DNA of 50,557 nt from Bdellovibrionales bacterium. GTDB taxonomy: Bacteria; Bdellovibrionota; Bdellovibrionia; Bdellovibrionales; JAGQZY01. The position numbers and the translations under genes are program-made. Location: NCBI GenBank assembly GCA_020435205.1, contig JAGQZY010000009.1, positions 1 to 50,557 of the forward strand. Reading direction: 5' to 3'. Below the pieces are notes generated by a model. The model had not been told where the DNA came from and searched no databases. It was given only the letters and a program-made list of their open reading frames with translations. Positions 42,678-50,557 of the stretch are shown here, one piece after another (positions within the stretch are counted from its first letter, which is position 1; every line of letters begins with the position of its first letter).

Positions 42678-44348
42678 TTATAAGCTATTGGTGTCGGTAC
42701 CGCCTGTGGCAGGAATATCAGTGCCATCGGTTGCCGTATCCACCGTACATTGATCAGAAGAGTCTGGTTCTAAATATTTGAACCAAAGATCAAAGATCAG
42801 GGTTTTCTTGCCATCATTAAAGTTAACAATCGATTTATAGGTTGTTTTGTTTCCGTATTGATCCACTTCAAAAAAGTTAGGGTCATACTTTAGGTCAATG
42901 GAGTTAACCTTCGCCGATTGAAGGCTTGTTAATTCGCCAGCATCAGAAATCCCATTGCCGTTGGCATCATGCCACAAGGCTAATTGGAAGAAGATGGGGT
43001 CGTCACCATCAATGGATCCATTGTGGTCTGAGTCGTATTTTGAAAGCGCCTCAAAACCATCGGTAGAGAATTTATTGTCAGGTCCAATGGTGTTATCGCC
43101 AAACATTTGATCCACACCAAGAACTTGTCCATTGGCATCAGGTTTGACTAAGAACTGGTAGCGTTGTTGTTGGGTCCAGCTGATTTGTTTTTTGTCATAG
43201 GGATTTGGCGAAGAGTTCAGACCGAGGATATCAAATAAGATCCCTTCAATCTGACTGCTGAGGCTAATTCCTTGGGCGTTGCCAATGTCGGCGCCAAGGT
43301 CCACAATCAATGGATCACATTCTCGCGCTGGTGGTCTATTGACATCAACACATGAGTTCCCTCTTTGCACAAAACCCTGATTACAGCTTTCGACATGGCA
43401 AAAGCCATAGGTTTTGAAAAAGGGAATCCATTTCTTCTTTCCTTTACCTCCGGCAATCGTACATTCTTTTTCTTTATCGATACATTTTTTGCCAGTCCAT
43501 ACCTGATCGTTATTACACTGGGATACGCAATGGTTTCCGTGCTTTTTGTAGCCACGGTCACAAGATACGGGTTCACAGTTGTCATAGACAAGGCTTTGTG
43601 GATTGTAGCGCTTCATACCCTTACCATTAGGCATTTTACAGTTTTTAGATGTGTGGCATTTGCCATAGCCAGCATCGAGCCAAACTTTAACACCTTCCAT
43701 GCCTTTTTTATCTTTACAGTCTTTGACCTTAGGCTCACATTGACCATTGGCATAGACATCATCCTCGGAACATTTGGCAATACATTGGCCATTGTTTAAC
43801 TCATAACCATCATCACAGGTCTTAGGGACACATTCTCCATAACTATTGGCCATCCAAGACTGTTCGCCGGAGCCGTTTTCGATGTCACAGGTGACAACTT
43901 TAGGGTAGCACTGGTCTTGTGCAAAGATTTCATCTTCTTTACATATGGATACACACTGATCCCCTTCGAGAGCAAAACCATCTGCGCAGGTGATCGGGTC
44001 TACGGGATCGATAGGGTCTACCGGATCAACAGGGTCCACTGGGTCGACGGGGTCAATAGGATCGACTGGATCGACGGGGTCCACTGGGTCAGCCGGATCG
44101 ATTGGATCTGTAGGGTCGGTTGGGCAGCTGGCCGCATCTTTTGCAAGAATGGGTCTATTGTTGCTATCAAATGAAGCCACTAGAGTTGGGTCTTGGTAAG
44201 ATGCGATGACTGTGCCACTAGCAAAGACGCTATTGCTTGCCAAAACTTCGGCTTTACTTTGTTCATTGCCAGATCCACTCGTACAGGCCGTAACAAATAT
44301 ATAGAGTGAAGCAACCAAAATTGTTTTGAGTTCATTTCTGATAAACAT
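42678..44348 (-). CDS. Asp-Pro repeat, Cys-rich, EF-hand lipoprotein
   Basis: 556 residues from the ATG at 44348 (TTGGAGG about 7 nt upstream); the longer frame adds 23 unlikely residues. Lipobox FVTAC gives Cys22. Residues about 76-120 are a rigid tripeptide-repeat stalk (mostly DPV/DPI). Residues about 120-350 are Cys-rich EGF-like repeats of the form DGY-x-x-x-x-x-Q-C. The C-terminal domain resembles Ca-binding modules of large surface proteins: FGDNTIGPD, then EF-hand loops DSDHNGSIDGDD (438-449) and DANGNGISDAGE (461-472). It looks like a calcium-binding protein held off the outer membrane by a stalk, possibly an adhesin. Partner unknown. Confidence 0.84.
   Translation of the reverse strand: MFIRNELKTILVASLYIFVTACTSGSGNEQSKAEVLASNSVFASGTVIASYQDPTLVASFDSNNRPILAKDAASCPTDPTDPIDPADPVDPVDPVDPIDPVDPVDPVDPVDPIDPVDPITCADGFALEGDQCVSICKEDEIFAQDQCYPKVVTCDIENGSGEQSWMANSYGECVPKTCDDGYELNNGQCIAKCSEDDVYANGQCEPKVKDCKDKKGMEGVKVWLDAGYGKCHTSKNCKMPNGKGMKRYNPQSLVYDNCEPVSCDRGYKKHGNHCVSQCNNDQVWTGKKCIDKEKECTIAGGKGKKKWIPFFKTYGFCHVESCNQGFVQRGNSCVDVNRPPARECDPLIVDLGADIGNAQGISLSSQIEGILFDILGLNSSPNPYDKKQISWTQQQRYQFLVKPDANGQVLGVDQMFGDNTIGPDNKFSTDGFEALSKYDSDHNGSIDGDDPIFFQLALWHDANGNGISDAGELTSLQSAKVNSIDLKYDPNFFEVDQYGNKTTYKSIVNFNDGKKTLIFDLWFKYLEPDSSDQCTVDTATDGTDIPATGGTDTNSL
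43996..44121 (-). repeat. 9-bp tandem repeat encoding the Asp-Pro stalk
   Basis: Fourteen consecutive 9-bp units (plus-strand form GG[GA]TCNNNN) encode Asp-Pro-Xaa tripeptides, mostly DPV and DPI. Third positions vary between units, so the array has been under selection or is old. Copy number could change by slippage and alter stalk length between strains. Confidence 0.85.
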
Positions 44349-44775
44349 AATAAAACCTCCAACCGTCACCCTATTAATGAGCAATGGTGGTGCCAGTCCA
44401 AATCCAATAGAGTGCACAAAGACCTGACCACAAAGTGTGCTTGCTTAGGTTTTTGACGAAAGATCGCAGAATTCAGAAGCTTTTGCCGTCTCAAAAGGGG
44501 TGGGGGAGGCCTAGACTCTCACTATTTTATTTACAGTTTCTACAAACTTCAAAATCTTCTCATTTTGAATGTCCCCCATTGATTCCAATTTCACGGGAAA
44601 GTGAAAAGACAATTCCTTATTTTGTAACAATAAGATAATCCCACACGGAATGAAGGTCCTTATCTCAGACTTGAAGCAATAATCGTAAATATATGTAAAT
44701 ACTTAAGAAAATTGGGGGTAGCTCAGGGGCAAGGGAGCTTGTCATCAATGTCGGAAAAAGCTAAGATTTGCCTTC
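44349..44775. other. 427-bp gene-free region between divergent genes
   Basis: No credible coding frame; a 67-residue frame lacks an RBS and any protein-like pattern. It must hold the promoters of the lipoprotein gene (minus) and of the DGDN cluster (plus). Three perfect short inverted repeats occur close together: 44549-44568 (7-bp arms), 44589-44606 (6-bp) and 44616-44634 (6-bp). A tRNA-like fragment at about 44714 was examined and rejected. Confidence 0.6.
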
Positions 44776-45690
44776 ATGGATAGCTTTTATATTTCATATG
44801 ATGAACCCAACAAAGAGGAAAACTGGCGCCAGATTCAGGGAAAGTGCCCTGGCGTGCAACGAGTGGATGGAGTTGAGGGGTTCAACAATGCCTATCAAGA
44901 GTGTGCTCGACGTTCAAAAACAGAACGCTTTTTTACCATCGATGGAGATAATGTTCTGCTTGATATCCGCCTTGGGGAAGGGCTCACTGATGAATTGTTG
45001 CAAACAGACTATATCTTTTCTTGGTCTGCGGAAAATAGCATCAATGGGTTGGCCTACGGCAATGGGGGTGTTAAAAACTGGCCCCGTTCCGTTGTGATAG
45101 CTATGAAAAGTCATGAGTCAGCAGGTGATGAGCGCTCTTCTGTAGATTTTTGCTTCAGCTACAAATACTTTCAAATGCCTCAGGTTTTGTCTCGTTCAGT
45201 GATTGATAAGTCTCCTTATCAAGCATTTCGTGCAGGCTTTCGCGAAGGTGTTAAGATGACTTTAGTACGAGGGGAGCGCTTACTCCTTGACCCAGACAAC
45301 TTATCCTCTGGCTTTCATGAGCTCGTCTCAGACTGTAATAAAGAAAGATTGAAAATATGGTGTAGCATTGGTCGCGATCGTCCTTTTGGTAAATGGGCGA
45401 TTTTAGGGGCTCGCCTTGGTTGCAGCAAAGTTTTACTTGAAGACTTCCCCATGGGAAAGATACGTGACTATCGATGGTTTGATCTTTACTGGAAAAATGA
45501 AATTGAGTCGGAATACCTAAGGGGACTGTTGCAAGAGGAGCAACTGGAACACGATCTAAAAAGACTCAAAGAAAACCTTAATGAAAATCTAGATTTAGGT
45601 TTGGTCGATTTCAGTGAAGAACAGTCCCTGTTTTTTAAATCGGTTTATTTCAATCGACCTCGATATGGATTGATGTTCGATGATCTATGA
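44776..45690 (+). CDS. DGDN-motif protein, phage-related type, paralogue 1
   Basis: 304 residues. The start MDSFYISYDEPNKEENW, followed by a RVDGVEGFNNAY segment and FFTIDGDNVLL (about 51-61), is the pattern of uncharacterised proteins that I recall from T4-like marine phages. The DGDN could be the metal-binding DxD of a GT-A-type glycosyltransferase (inference). A second conserved block is AFRAGFREGVK, then ERLKIWCSIGRDRPFGKWAILGARLG. No signal peptide or membrane segment, so cytoplasmic. No clear SD precedes the ATG. It is the first gene of a coupled trio with its paralogue (11-bp overlap) and a radical SAM gene. The C-terminal 60 residues are helical and absent from the paralogue. Confidence 0.8.
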   Translation: MDSFYISYDEPNKEENWRQIQGKCPGVQRVDGVEGFNNAYQECARRSKTERFFTIDGDNVLLDIRLGEGLTDELLQTDYIFSWSAENSINGLAYGNGGVKNWPRSVVIAMKSHESAGDERSSVDFCFSYKYFQMPQVLSRSVIDKSPYQAFRAGFREGVKMTLVRGERLLLDPDNLSSGFHELVSDCNKERLKIWCSIGRDRPFGKWAILGARLGCSKVLLEDFPMGKIRDYRWFDLYWKNEIESEYLRGLLQEEQLEHDLKRLKENLNENLDLGLVDFSEEQSLFFKSVYFNRPRYGLMFDDL

Positions 45691-46390
45691 TATATTTTTC
45701 TTGTCCTACCGAGAACCCTCCGCGGAGGCTAACTGGGAAAGGTTGATCGAATCCTTCCCATGGGCGCGTCGAATTGACAATATCGCCGGAATTCATAAAG
45801 CTCACCTCAAAGTTTTTGAATCTGCAGAGTCAGAGTTCTTTTTTATAGTTGATGGAGATAACTCGCTGTTGCCAGATTTTCATTTTGATGTTCATTTTAA
45901 GCCGGAGCCAGATACAGTTTACGTTTGGCGCTGTAAAAATCCAGTCAATGATTTAGTTTACGGCTATGGAGGAGTGAAACTCTATCATCGTTCAATGAAG
46001 CAAGCCTTGATAGATAAGCCTGCCATTGATATCGCGACCTCTTTAGGAGTTCATTATCGCCCTGTTCCGACAATAGCATCGATAACCAGTTTTAACACAT
46101 CCCCTTTTGATAGTTGGCGTTCGGCCTTTCGCGAAGCCGGAAAACTGCAAATCAATTTGTTAAAAAATTCTAAGGATTTGCACTCCGAGCAAAGACTGAA
46201 AATTTGGTGTGAAAAGGGGGAAGGTCGGCCATTTGGTCGTTGGTGCCTGCTGGGAGCCAGAGCTGGCAAAGCTTTTATCCTTAAAAATCAAAATCATCCA
46301 GAACACTGGTCTCACCTTAATGACTTTGAATGGTTGCGGGGTCTGTTCCCCCTGCAGACTGTCGAGTCTCCTCTCGAGGCTCCACTGTGA
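45680..46390 (+). CDS. DGDN-motif protein, phage-related type, paralogue 2
   Basis: 236 residues. Same architecture as the preceding gene: YDIFFLSYREPSAEANW, RRIDNIAGIHKAH, FFIVDGDNSLL, a YVWRCKNPVNDLVYGYGGVKL segment, WRSAFREAGK and ERLKIWC-like QRLKIWCEKGEGRPFGRWCLLGARAG. The two proteins are paralogues kept side by side, perhaps as a heteromer or acting on consecutive substrates. Possible glycosyltransferase through the DGD motif; unproven. It starts within the 3' end of paralogue 1 and its TGA overlaps the GTG of the radical SAM gene, so the three are co-translated. Confidence 0.82.
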   Translation: MIYDIFFLSYREPSAEANWERLIESFPWARRIDNIAGIHKAHLKVFESAESEFFFIVDGDNSLLPDFHFDVHFKPEPDTVYVWRCKNPVNDLVYGYGGVKLYHRSMKQALIDKPAIDIATSLGVHYRPVPTIASITSFNTSPFDSWRSAFREAGKLQINLLKNSKDLHSEQRLKIWCEKGEGRPFGRWCLLGARAGKAFILKNQNHPEHWSHLNDFEWLRGLFPLQTVESPLEAPL

Positions 46391-47745
46391 AAAAACCATT
46401 TTGTCCTCTGCCCTGGGTGATGCTTGCCACTCGTAATGACGGCAAGGTGCGCTTATGTGCTCAGTCTCATTCCAGTCCAGATAAGGGTGTCAACCGTGGT
46501 GATGACGGGAAGATCTTCACTATAAATCAATCCACTTTAGCGGAATTAAAAAACTCAAACTTTATGAAGTCAGTGCGCAAAGAGTTTTTGCAAGGACGAT
46601 TCCCTGAAAGTTGTGGCCGCTGTGCCAAAGAAGTTCAGGCCGGCCTTCGTTCTCGCCCCGATTATGAGTCGGCCAATTGGCAAAATTTTATTGACCTTGA
46701 AAAGGCGAGACAGTTGACCCGGAGTGATGGGCATATCGAATCGCCCATTCGTTTTTTAGATCTTCGTTTAGGAAACTTGTGTAACTTAAAATGTCGGACT
46801 TGTAACCCAACAGAATCCAGCTCCTGGTATGCCGATCATGTTTCCGTGTGGGGGAAGTCGTTTAAAGGGTTTCAAGGGCAAAAGTTGAGGTTGCACAAAG
46901 AGGGTTCTATTTGGCAGGTGCAGGGGGACTCTTTTTGCTGGGGGGAAAATGAAAAAATAGCCCCAGCCTTAAAAGAAGCCCTAGAAACCGTAGAGTTGAT
47001 TCACTTTTCTGGTGGCGAGCCTTTACTTCTTAAATCTCATTATAAAATTCTAGAGTTTCTCAAAGATATAGGGCGATCGGGTGAAGTGCGCCTTGAATAC
47101 ATAACGAATCTCACCGTTCTGCCCGAGAAAGCCCTCCAACTTTGGCAGGATTTTTTAGACGTGCGGATCGGGATCAGTATTGATGGCGTGGGCGCAGTGA
47201 ACGACTACGTTCGCTATCCCAGTCGCTGGAACCAAATAGAAAGTCATATGGCCATACTTGACCGGTGGCAAAGACCTGAGTCCATTTGGTATGCGCTGAC
47301 TTTACATGCTTACAATATTTTTTACCTTCCAGAGTTGATTGAGTGGAGGATTCACAGCCCCTTTCTCAATATTAATAACAGAGAGCCAGACCCATTATTT
47401 TCAGTTCACCCCTTACATAACCCCTCTTTTCTGAATATCCAGATGTTACCGAGTCAAGTGAAGAGCAAAGTATCTCAGCGCCTGCAATCTTACCTTGCTA
47501 AGGGGAGTCGGGACGGACGATTTGACCAAACACCTTATCCCTATATTACAACGGCAGCGGTAGAGGCTCTTGTGAGTGGTTATATTGATTTTATGAATCA
47601 ACAGGATCAATCATCATTTTTTACAAAATTCATTGATTATACAGATAGCCTCGACAAGGTTCGAAAGCAATCTATGGCTGAGGCTTTACCAGAGTTCAGT
47701 CAATGTTTAAGGCAGGGGTCGTCCTTCCTTGATAGTAGGCTTTAA
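46387..47745 (+). CDS. twitch-type radical SAM protein
   Basis: 452 residues from a GTG at 46387 that overlaps the upstream stop; the longer frame would extend 57 bp back into the previous gene. The radical SAM cluster is C132-x3-C136-x2-C139 (LGNLCNLKCRTCNP), with the SAM-binding FSGGEPLL motif later and GISIDGVG. The N-terminus FCPLPW, with Cys6, Cys24, Cys76 and Cys79 (SCGRC), matches the twitch/SPASM-like module that may hold an auxiliary Fe-S cluster. Such enzymes modify peptides, sugars or other small molecules by radical chemistry. Coupled to two DGDN genes. A paralogue is at the right edge. Confidence 0.9.
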   Translation: MKKPFCPLPWVMLATRNDGKVRLCAQSHSSPDKGVNRGDDGKIFTINQSTLAELKNSNFMKSVRKEFLQGRFPESCGRCAKEVQAGLRSRPDYESANWQNFIDLEKARQLTRSDGHIESPIRFLDLRLGNLCNLKCRTCNPTESSSWYADHVSVWGKSFKGFQGQKLRLHKEGSIWQVQGDSFCWGENEKIAPALKEALETVELIHFSGGEPLLLKSHYKILEFLKDIGRSGEVRLEYITNLTVLPEKALQLWQDFLDVRIGISIDGVGAVNDYVRYPSRWNQIESHMAILDRWQRPESIWYALTLHAYNIFYLPELIEWRIHSPFLNINNREPDPLFSVHPLHNPSFLNIQMLPSQVKSKVSQRLQSYLAKGSRDGRFDQTPYPYITTAAVEALVSGYIDFMNQQDQSSFFTKFIDYTDSLDKVRKQSMAEALPEFSQCLRQGSSFLDSRL

Positions 47746-48616
47746 CTCCGTTGCGGATACCAACTCGATTATACAAGCCGTCCACTTCAAAGGACTTCCA
47801 CTTCTGATCACCGAGAGCAATATGCATGACAGGTGTGGCCTGTAAAGAAAGATCTTTGCAGAAAGCCAGTTGCGAGCCTCGAAACTTTAGCGGAATGTGG
47901 TCTACTGAAAAGTGTTTCATCATATAAAGACCTATTTTGGCTGCACACAATACTGAGTGATTATACTGGTTTTGCTGAGAAATACTGCCCTGATTATCAA
48001 TGCGGCTATAGCGAATGCCTGATCGAATATCACCAAGACCCAGCCCCTTTGTTAAAGAAAAGCAAACGGAAAGGATAGCGGGATGGTCAGCATTAAAATC
48101 AATTTGCGCACAGGTGCCAATATAGGCGCAATCAAGAATGACGGGAACATTGAGTTTTAGAGCTTCATCAAGGGTGTGAGAGGTTTGGGGATGAACTTCC
48201 CCTGTGGAGCAAAAAGGAGCGCTGACGATGATAAAATCATCGGCTGCCAGCGGTTCATCTTCGATAAATTTCCAATGGGGAAAAACCCTGCGGTGGTAGG
48301 CATATTCACCTCGAAAAATTCGCAATCGCCGGCTTCGATACTCAAAGTAGGCCTCATCAAAACTTTGTGTGGTACCGTTGGTAAGATGACGGATGGGAAA
48401 AGCATCCAGGCCCCTGATTTTTTGTAAGGAGCTGGATTGTAGCCAGTGATGGTAGGTTTCCAAATACTCCTCGCGAATGCGAAAAGTTTCTGGAGTGTTG
48501 ATCCAATCCTGCCAAGGGATAGACTTTAAGGCCTTAATGAAGGCGAAGTCGTAGACGGCCGCTGTCTTTTGAGTGATCCAGCCTTGCTGGCTAGCCCATT
48601 CCACTGTGATTTCCAT
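47696..48616 (-). CDS. PLP-dependent aminotransferase-like protein
   Basis: 306 residues. A fold-type I PLP pattern can be read: LTNGTTQSFDEAYFEY (phosphate loop and aromatic stacking), VILDCAYIGTC (Asp that would contact the pyridine N), and CFSLTKGLGLGDIRSGIRY, where the Lys would bind PLP. The chain is shorter than the usual 380-450 residues, so the C-terminal small domain is reduced. I call it PLP-enzyme-like; the substrate is unknown. It is convergent with the radical SAM gene and overlaps it by 50 bp, with both reading frames intact. It may act in the same pathway by adding an amino group. Confidence 0.72.
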   Translation of the reverse strand: MEITVEWASQQGWITQKTAAVYDFAFIKALKSIPWQDWINTPETFRIREEYLETYHHWLQSSSLQKIRGLDAFPIRHLTNGTTQSFDEAYFEYRSRRLRIFRGEYAYHRRVFPHWKFIEDEPLAADDFIIVSAPFCSTGEVHPQTSHTLDEALKLNVPVILDCAYIGTCAQIDFNADHPAILSVCFSLTKGLGLGDIRSGIRYSRIDNQGSISQQNQYNHSVLCAAKIGLYMMKHFSVDHIPLKFRGSQLAFCKDLSLQATPVMHIALGDQKWKSFEVDGLYNRVGIRNGVKAYYQGRTTPALNID

Positions 48617-48706
48617 GGGCTCAGCTTAGAACTCCTGGGCGATAGGGGTCAACAGACTCTTGCCGGACCCATTGTCAATTATCTTGCGGAGTGCTAGAAA
48701 CTGATT

Positions 48707-49378
48707 ATGGATATTTTTGATTTCAAAGTTGGGTTGAATTTGCTCCAGTCCTGTTTGCGCGGGCAACGGGAGTCTGACTGGGATTGGAGTGATGCTTTCT
48801 CTTCGGGGCAGTTGCAAAGCAAACTCTGGCTTATTCGAGAGGCGGAAAGAGTTTTTCAGGGTCAGTCTTTCCATACAGCCTTTGTTCTCGCGGGATGGGT
48901 AGGACTGCTGCCGGCTCTTTGGCTTGAGCAGAAAACCTGTCCCATTCAGCAGTTTCGCTCCTTTGATTGGGATAGCAAGAGCACAGAAGTGGCCGAAGAG
49001 ATCAACCGCCCCTGGGTGAAGAAAGATTGGACCTTTAAGGCAACAACTCTTGATATCAAAGATTTGCATTTTCCCCTTAGTGAATATCAAACTTTGCGCA
49101 AAGATGGTTCGATTTGTTTGATGCACGAGAAGGCAGACTTAATTATTAATACTTCCTGTGAACACATCACTCAATTTCAGAATTGGTTGGAAACCCTTCC
49201 TGAAAACGTCCCATTAATTTTGCAGTCTAATAATTTTTCAGGGGGCGAGGGGCATGTCAATTGCTGTAGAGATCTTGCGCACTTTGAAGAGCAGTGTTCG
49301 TTTAAAAGAGTTTTGTATAAAGGCACTTTAGCCTTAGATCACTATGACCGCTTTATGATCATTGGAACCCGAGGATAG
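48707..49378 (+). CDS. class I SAM-dependent methyltransferase-like protein
   Basis: 223 residues. The order fits a Rossmann methyltransferase: FVLAGWVGLLPALW (a modified motif I), RSFDWDSKS (acidic residue for SAM ribose), WTFKATTLDI, and DLIINTSCEHI (motif IV region), then VPLILQSNNFSGGEGHVN. From memory, a similar NTSCEH family occurs in T4-like marine phages and alongside radical SAM genes. Methyl acceptor unknown. Weak SD before the ATG. Followed within 5 bp by a GNAT gene in the same direction. Confidence 0.7.
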   Translation: MDIFDFKVGLNLLQSCLRGQRESDWDWSDAFSSGQLQSKLWLIREAERVFQGQSFHTAFVLAGWVGLLPALWLEQKTCPIQQFRSFDWDSKSTEVAEEINRPWVKKDWTFKATTLDIKDLHFPLSEYQTLRKDGSICLMHEKADLIINTSCEHITQFQNWLETLPENVPLILQSNNFSGGEGHVNCCRDLAHFEEQCSFKRVLYKGTLALDHYDRFMIIGTRG

Positions 49379-49382
49379 GCTC

Positions 49383-49835
49383 TTGCAGGTCCTTCCCGCC
49401 ACCTTTTCTGAAATAGAACCCATTTGGAGAGAAAAGCTATGGCCTGGCCGACAGAGCCCGATTAGGACCCATAGCAGTATGAAGTTGCAAGGGAGCTATG
49501 ACATGGAGATTTACAAGAATCCTGTACACTTTTGGAAGATTCTTGACGGTGAGGGAAGAGTGATTGGGGTCAACAGTGGGTTTGTAAGTGGCAAGGATAG
49601 CTATCGCTCGCGAGGACTATTTGTTGAAACCGATTGGCGAGGACGGGGATTTGCAAAGCGGCTGCTCAAAGCGACTGAAGCTCAGGCTATAGTCTTTGAT
49701 AAAAAAATTCTTTGGAGTTTTGCCCGTGGCTCTGCCCTGAAAGTTTACCAGAGTGTTGGCTTTGAGGTGGTTGGAGAAGATGTCGGGCAAATCGGTGAAT
49801 TTGGTCCTAATTTTTATGTGGCTAAAAAGTTATAG
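49383..49835 (+). CDS. GNAT-family N-acetyltransferase
   Basis: 150 residues from a TTG at 49383, which has GAGGA 7 nt upstream; an earlier TTG at 49362 lacks an SD and overlaps the upstream gene. The acetyl-CoA-binding segment is RGLFVETDWRGRGFAKRLLKATEAQA (beta-4 to alpha-3 with a Gly-rich loop), and the C-terminal VYQSVGFEVVGED is typical. It would acetylate an amine of a small molecule or protein. It ends 6 bp inside the convergent radical SAM gene. Being joined to the methyltransferase gene, it probably acts on the same product. Confidence 0.85.
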   Translation: MQVLPATFSEIEPIWREKLWPGRQSPIRTHSSMKLQGSYDMEIYKNPVHFWKILDGEGRVIGVNSGFVSGKDSYRSRGLFVETDWRGRGFAKRLLKATEAQAIVFDKKILWSFARGSALKVYQSVGFEVVGEDVGQIGEFGPNFYVAKKL

Positions 49836-50557
49836 AATATTTTGATGAAGTCGAGGGATGGATTGTGACAGGCTTTGTCCGCGCATTTCGTCTAATTTTT
49901 CAGAAAAGTTTTTAAATTTCTCTAGATATTGGCTCTGATCTTTCTTCCACAAGTAGGTGCGGATGCCCTCGATCCCATTTATGGTTTTTTCGATGGATAC
50001 CTCACTCCAGCCTTGCTTTTTCCAATTTCGCAAAAGGTCTATACAATGCTCAAGATGGTGATCAGCTTCTTCTTTGCTTTTTTGGTCTAAAATCTGGATA
50101 TTCAAATAGTGAGGGCGGTGTAAAATATGGCTTGTAAATAGCGGGGCCCAAGCTCGTTGTTTAACAAATTGAAAATCACTATCCACAATCCATTGCAGCA
50201 ATAGGTCTAAATAAAAGATATTATAAATTTGGATCGTTGGGGCAATCCACATGTCCAAATTTTTTAGACCAAAACTATCAACCGCTTTGATGTTTTTTTC
50301 TAAATCTGAAAATTGGCTAGGGTAGCGGATGTAGTCGTTGACTGCACCAAAACCATCGAGACTCACTCCGAGACTCACTTTGCGAAAGGACTTCCATAAC
50401 TCTAAAATCTCGGAGTTGATAATCGTTAAATTGGTATTGTATTCAATGTTGATTTGTGGCGCCAGACCTTCATCAACGAGCCGTTTTAAAAAATGAAGAT
50501 GGGGTTCGATGAGTAGAGGCTCACCACCGACAAAATAAATGTACTCTAGGCCTTCCG
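49830..50557 (-). CDS. second twitch-type radical SAM protein, N-terminus outside window
   Basis: 242 codons of the C-terminal part are visible; the frame is open to the right edge. FVGGEPLLIEPH (SAM-binding), IEYNTNLT, VSLGVSLDGFGAVNDYIRYPSQ, IQIYNIFYLDLLLQW and LDEMRGQSLSQ align step by step with the gene at 46387-47745, so the two are paralogues. The CxxxCxxC cluster would lie beyond the edge. Identity between the two seems moderate, with different N-to-C spacing in places. Probably another enzyme of the same pathway. Confidence 0.88.
   Translation of the reverse strand, partial: EGLEYIYFVGGEPLLIEPHLHFLKRLVDEGLAPQINIEYNTNLTIINSEILELWKSFRKVSLGVSLDGFGAVNDYIRYPSQFSDLEKNIKAVDSFGLKNLDMWIAPTIQIYNIFYLDLLLQWIVDSDFQFVKQRAWAPLFTSHILHRPHYLNIQILDQKSKEEADHHLEHCIDLLRNWKKQGWSEVSIEKTINGIEGIRTYLWKKDQSQYLEKFKNFSEKLDEMRGQSLSQSIPRLHQNIL

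Follow-up and report, generated by a model that had tools for sequence, protein, structure and literature searches.

Groups of radical S-adenosylmethionine (radical SAM) genes have been described in T4-like phages. In pelagimyophages, a hypervariable island known as the host recognition cluster combines radical SAM cassettes with GT8 enzymes and tail fibres, and it was suggested that the host O-chain is modified to counter coinfection (PMC7029224). In Campylobacter phages CP220 and CPt10, 11-12 radical SAM genes are distributed over clusters that can be exchanged, and every cluster also has a putative glycine amidinotransferase (PMC2853527). Here we analyze a set of genes at the end of a 50,557 nucleotide stretch of DNA (the window) from a Bdellovibrionales bacterium (assembly GCA_020435205.1), which is the entire contig JAGQZY010000009.1 (C167) of a 2.8 Mb genome (G000). 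The set includes two paralogs of a family that we call DGDN, two radical SAM genes with a twitch domain (TWI1 and TWI2) and a gene predicted to have a methyltransferase fold (MT). We favor, with moderate confidence, the reading that these genes belong to a conserved module for building or altering a surface glycan, common to aquatic T4-like phages and Bdellovibrionota.

The likeness to the pelagimyophage cluster lies in the joint occurrence of tail fibres, GT8 enzymes and radical SAM genes in T4-like aquatic phages; however, the accessible part of that account contains no DGDN, MT, twitch subfamily or bacterial counterpart (PMC7029224), whereas the set analyzed here also occurs on chromosomes of Bdellovibrionota. 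CP220 and CPt10 are likewise T4-like phages with radical SAM modules, but a metabolic function was proposed for these, and DGDN and MT are not mentioned in the available part of the report (PMC2853527). TWI1 and TWI2 both score above the cut-off of the subfamily model NF033640, which assigns no function and names no DGDN or MT partners. DGDN resembles the GT2-type GT-A enzymes TarP, SunS and WrtF in its predicted fold and in the position of a DxD motif, but shows no significant sequence similarity to them and has its own all-helical C-terminal half, in which R151, E152, K155 and W176 are conserved. The best structural match of MT is NodS, the N-methyltransferase of chitooligosaccharide Nod factors, with an identity of only 12%. 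A literature search on radical SAM enzymes together with Bdellovibrionota, outside which most subscription papers fell, yielded no report of such a module. The module is thus partly anticipated on the phage side; its bacterial counterpart is unrecognised, and the DGDN and MT families are uncharacterised. An earlier note on this DNA had proposed an undescribed modification system, and this stands in so far as no curated family covers DGDN or MT, but has to be narrowed in view of the glycosyltransferase and radical SAM cassettes that the accessible part of the pelagimyophage account reports (PMC7029224).

The genes of the cluster, with the evidence on which each description is based, are as follows.
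44776-45690, plus strand: DGDN1, long-type (~300 amino acids) GT-A-like putative glycosyltransferase (open reading frame, identity to DGDN2, tree, DxD).
45680-46390, plus strand: DGDN2, short-type (~225 amino acids) GT-A-like putative glycosyltransferase (AlphaFold2 model, Foldseek, viral relatives).
46387-47745, plus strand: TWI1, radical SAM protein with N-terminal twitch domain (NF033640 match, cysteine motifs).
47696-48616, minus strand: pyridoxal phosphate (PLP)-like gene, aminotransferase-like protein of fold type I (weak NCBIfam aminotransferase matches, homologs, motifs).
48707-49378, plus strand: MT, class I SAM-dependent methyltransferase-fold protein (AlphaFold2 model, viral relatives, fusions).
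49362-49835, plus strand: GNAT acetyltransferase (Pfam Acetyltransf_7 match).
49830-50555, minus strand: TWI2, second twitch radical SAM protein, partial (NF033640 match).

DGDN1, DGDN2 and TWI1 run rightward and are followed by the PLP-like gene on the opposite strand, by MT and GNAT running rightward again, and by the leftward TWI2, which lacks its N-terminal part because the gene runs off the contig end. DGDN1 and DGDN2 overlap by 11 bases. The TWI1 reading frame is open from 46330, and its start is most likely the GTG at 46387, which overlaps the DGDN2 stop as GTGA. These three genes are probably translated together, with the rest in other transcription units; a scan for promoters and terminators gave results no better than shuffled sequences. 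The start-to-stop overlap of two DGDN paralogs with a radical SAM gene, and the twitch identity of both radical SAM genes, had been proposed in the earlier note and were borne out. The aminotransferase-like, methyltransferase-like, GNAT and second radical SAM genes that it listed are also all present, but because the PLP-like gene and TWI2 lie on the minus strand, the set is a cluster and not one operon.

Comparison across genomes and viral contigs demonstrated that DGDN, the twitch radical SAM genes and MT are grouped together far beyond chance. Among 60 genomes of the order Bdellovibrionales, twitch radical SAM genes scored above the cut-off in 20, MT in 17 and DGDN in 7, and the nesting was perfect, with all 7 DGDN genomes contained in the 17 MT genomes and all of those contained in the 20 twitch genomes. 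Fisher p values for the co-conservation of twitch, MT and DGDN were 2.9e-12, 2e-4 and 5e-5, values drawn from genomes that share ancestry and are not truly independent samples. Within the family, 5/5 genomes had two DGDN genes. The closest relatives in our search were Bdellovibrionia metagenome-assembled genomes (MAGs); G001, in the same genus, has a cluster of twitch, DGDN2, MT and PLP genes with two further radical SAM families, labeled here rSAM3 and rSAM4. A locus in Bacteriovoracaceae (L267) contains twitch radical SAM, rSAM3, rSAM4, DGDN, MT and GT2 genes and two PLP genes. In some relatives (G002, G003), DGDN and MT are far apart. A 35 kb chromosomal island in G002 (L288-L290, G002:C1, ~740-775 kb) contains about a dozen twitch radical SAM genes, along with MT, PLP, rSAM3, rSAM4, UDP-glucose pyrophosphorylase and Asp/Asn hydroxylase genes. 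Tail-fibre genes were absent from the bacterial clusters except L207 (Bdellovibrionales bacterium SI034_bin15), where the module and a tail-fibre-like gene lie on a MAG contig that is either a prophage-like region or a phage contig.

The same grouping was evident in viruses, where hundreds of IMG/VR contigs encode DGDN and MT. On 13 viral contigs longer than 100 kb, 69/99 twitch genes were located within 10 kb of a DGDN gene (19.2 expected), as were 15 of the 17 MT genes (3.5 expected), and none of 20,000 circular shifts reached the observed clustering; these contigs were picked for containing DGDN or MT, a selection that the circular shifts take into account, since the number of genes on each contig is left unchanged. 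Across 62 non-redundant viral loci we found twitch radical SAM genes in 50, rSAM4 in 37, MT in 36, GT8-like genes in 24, rSAM3 in 22 and UDP-sugar dehydrogenase in 16, and the gap between DGDN and the next gene on the same strand was no more than 20 bases in 83/86 cases. Sugar genes near the module encode UDP-glucose pyrophosphorylase, UDP-sugar dehydrogenase, a glycogenin-like GT8 protein (the GT8-like profile matches glycogenin at 2e-6), a nucleotidyltransferase and GDSL hydrolases. The T4-type capsid protein Gp23 was present in 10/25 viral records. Genes upstream of the viral module include one whose product matches tail fibre and virion structural families of PHROGs; the module often lies directly downstream of such tail-fibre-like genes, and the recurrent order is fibre-like, GT8-like, DGDN, twitch. 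Cultured phages yielded a single, distant MT, that of Pelagibacter phage Mosig. Contigs labeled as bacterial or archaeal MAGs (L242, L248, L249, L252, L257, L263, L269, L271 and L276) also have the viral order of fibre-like, GT8-like and DGDN genes, with twitch radical SAM next in most of them; their labels include Rickettsiales, Neomarinimicrobiota, Pelagibacter, Verrucomicrobia, Pacearchaeota and others, and they are probably phage contigs binned with their hosts.

Gene fusions were found repeatedly. Several phages have DGDN1-DGDN2 fusions of ~530 amino acids, L063 and L065 have a DGDN1-DGDN2-MT fusion of 869 amino acids, and in G053 a DGDN is fused to GT2 domains in a protein of 1220 amino acids.

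The DGDN paralogs of the window are 37% identical to each other and represent two subtypes, of 300 (DGDN1) and 225 (DGDN2) amino acids. They had no Pfam or NCBIfam match, no confident PHROGs match and no PDB sequence match. In the family tree DGDN1 groups with long-type phage and Bdellovibrionota proteins, and phage and bacterial members occur in both subtypes, indicating that the subtypes separated before at least part of the exchange took place; we claim no direction of transfer, given the mixed subtypes and the modest tree supports. The four letters that gave the family its label vary (DGDN, DADA and others) and are therefore unsafe as a signature, the near-invariant part being only D-x-D, which is kept in 39/39 long-type members and located at the end of a predicted strand. 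Among 89 members, D58 was found in 87 and D60 in all, and N90, Y94, K100, R151, E152, K155 and W176 were invariant. The DGDN2 model (AlphaFold2, mean predicted local distance difference test score, pLDDT, 93) has a GT-A-like fold; its top Foldseek matches are the glycosyltransferases TarP, SunS and WrtF (E 1e-4 to 1e-3), and its VIA Z is ~11 over residues 1-138, with IspD, MobA and B4GALNT1 tied, so that the fold alone cannot separate a glycosyltransferase from a nucleotidyltransferase. In Photorhabdus, Streptomyces and Dyadobacter, DGDN has GT4 or GT2 enzymes as neighbors, and this context favors a glycosyltransferase. Two GT2 families are the Pfam families matched by most DGDN members, though weakly (8/89 and 6/89; best E 0.02 and 0.0082). 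From the model and these matches we infer that DGDN proteins are probably GT-A glycosyltransferases with a putative metal-binding DxD. Viral contigs encode relatives of DGDN2 with 39-45% identity.

In actinomycetes such as Streptomyces and Kitasatospora (L216-L273), homologs of DGDN belong to a conserved cluster that contains GT-B glycosyltransferases and lacks radical SAM genes. A 480 amino acid protein in a glycosyltransferase locus of the source genome (L197, 12299-13741, G000:C55) matches DGDN only over the latter's C-terminal helical half, which here follows an unrelated N-terminal portion.

MT had no confident match in Pfam, NCBIfam or PHROGs, and its viral relatives are up to 47% identical. 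Its AlphaFold2 model (pLDDT 92.6) gave a VIA Z of 16.4 with NodS over 170 residues (2.6 A) and of 14 to 16 with many class I methyltransferases, among which NodS ranks first but is tied within one Z unit. The model indicates a Rossmann-like class I methyltransferase fold. Nicotianamine synthase was among the Foldseek matches, and it is possible that MT catalyzes another SAM reaction instead.

TWI1 scored 334 bits against NF033640 ('twitch domain-containing radical SAM'; cut-off 170), and the partial TWI2 scored 197 bits over profile positions 173-396. TWI1 has the motif CNLKCRTC (CxxxCxxC) at residue 132, and four N-terminal cysteines (6, 24, 76 and 79) that would fit an auxiliary cluster; in TWI2 this whole region is missing because of the contig end. 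The source genome contains eight NF033640 genes above the cut-off, of which two on contig C105 lie beside GT2 glycosyltransferases and one on C55 beside glycosyltransferase-like genes.

The PLP-like protein of the window has weak NCBIfam aminotransferase matches, and its ILDCAY and SLTKG motifs represent the fold type I Asp and Lys motifs. Homologs were found in the G001 cluster, twice in L267, in the G002 island and in viral loci L051 and L054; the Asp and SxxK are kept in L190, L054 and both L267 copies, and L051 is cut before this region. We considered the PLP-like gene as a core member, but a pattern scan found no viral relative and a profile found it in only 2/62 non-redundant viral loci; it is an occasional member of the module. 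The GNAT protein matches Pfam Acetyltransf_7 (39.3 bits, cut-off 27), and is probably a bystander, as no relative was found in any bacterial or viral module locus examined. The earlier note had treated the whole set as a pathway, with several members resembling marine phage genes; the resemblance is confirmed by relatives in aquatic phages, and the pathway is retained for the co-conserved DGDN, twitch and MT genes, but not for GNAT, which recurs in no locus, and only in part for PLP.

Unlike many of its viral relatives, the window cluster is not beside tail-fibre genes. A prophage origin was rejected on the basis of its flanks, 44 kb of ordinary chromosomal genes, and its flat G+C content. C105 and the window contig both end inside radical SAM genes, and the assembly probably broke within one radical SAM array; their ends do not overlap, leaving adjacency unproven, and we did not join them. 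To the left of the cluster (42678-44417, minus strand) is a gene for a secreted-looking protein of 579 amino acids with a long (DPVDP) acidic-proline repeat and cysteine-rich repeats, for which there was no Pfam family above the cut-off.

From the gene content, fold predictions, catalytic motifs, co-conservation, fusions and phage context, we infer substrates, an order of steps, a product and a purpose for the module. DGDN1 and DGDN2 would work as paired glycosyltransferases with nucleotide sugars as donors, the DxD holding a metal ion. The twitch radical SAM enzymes, together with two further radical SAM families in relatives, would generate a 5'-deoxyadenosyl radical to remove a hydrogen atom from a sugar or acceptor carbon, and the outcome would be deoxygenation, epimerisation, dehydrogenation or C-C chemistry. 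Amination of a keto-sugar would fall to the PLP enzyme, and O- or N-methylation to MT. The product may be an unusual surface polysaccharide or glycoprotein that alters the cell surface in the bacterium, and in aquatic T4-like phages the module may alter the host surface or the virion's own fibres.

Several observations weigh against a glycan module. Nucleotidyltransferases such as MobA and IspD have the GT-A fold too, and share the top VIA Z; the profile comparison of DGDN with GT2 was not significant; and no DGDN was found in any record of the cultured-phage collection. Many Streptomyces DGDN genes are located in glycosyltransferase clusters without a radical SAM gene, indicating that DGDN alone does not define the module and that the module takes its DGDN members from a broader glycosyltransferase-like family. 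In addition, SPASM/twitch radical SAM enzymes often act on peptides. This last point, the frequent position of phage copies just downstream of tail-fibre-like genes, and the Asp/Asn hydroxylase genes in the G002 island and the Pelagibacter phage Mosig cluster would all fit radical SAM enzymes that modify a protein (phage tail fibres, or a surface protein in the bacterium), with DGDN glycosylating that protein. We regard this as unlikely, since the recurrent neighbors are sugar-nucleotide and glycosyltransferase genes, tail-fibre genes are confined to L207 among bacterial clusters, and no conserved small precursor peptide was noticed beside the module, where open reading frames under ~90 amino acids were not searched systematically.

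The earlier note had left open a modified sugar or a small molecule. Glycan chemistry fits the former; a diffusible metabolite, such as an aminosugar-like compound, we rate only as a rival and a rather improbable one. Transfer, radical, amino and methyl chemistry does resemble aminoglycoside or nucleoside pathways, and the best PDB sequence match of TWI1 is cytosylglucuronate decarboxylase, although not significantly (E 0.18), but the module showed no gene for a transporter or an assembly line, and lytic T4-like phages with the set beside tail-fibre-like genes are hard to square with a secreted metabolite. That same position, away from DNA-replication genes, makes it very improbable that a nucleobase is modified and glycosylated, as phages are known to do; nothing in the bacterium suggests a modified-DNA system, and the weak match of one DGDN-GT2 fusion to a TET-associated glycosyltransferase (E 5.6e-5, below cut-off) lies within the GT2 domain and not in DGDN. 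We find it scarcely credible that genes of separate pathways have come together by chance. The opposite strand of PLP and TWI2, the lack of conservation of GNAT, and the distance between DGDN and MT in G002 and G003 could be read in this way, but nested co-occurrence, viral-contig clustering and repeated gene fusions argue against it, and the co-occurrence data already contradict it for DGDN, twitch radical SAM and MT, though not for GNAT.

The surface glycan module thus remains our preferred reading. It is conceivable, although we put this forward tentatively and with considerable doubt, that it represents an unrecognised glycan system, in which a new GT-A family builds a surface glycan and twitch radical SAM arrays act on its sugars as it grows. 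Such a system would have been exchanged by T4-like aquatic phages and predatory-type Bdellovibrionota, and in the latter it may mask or remodel the cell surface. Reports of radical SAM genes in phage genomes go back to at least 2010, with no clear function assigned. Co-occurrence and gene fusion now link several of these families to two uncharacterised ones, and bacterial chromosomes, where testing might be possible, carry the set as well. If the proposed glycan system is real, radical enzymes would join the means of phage-driven surface change, and DGDN would represent a new glycosyltransferase family.

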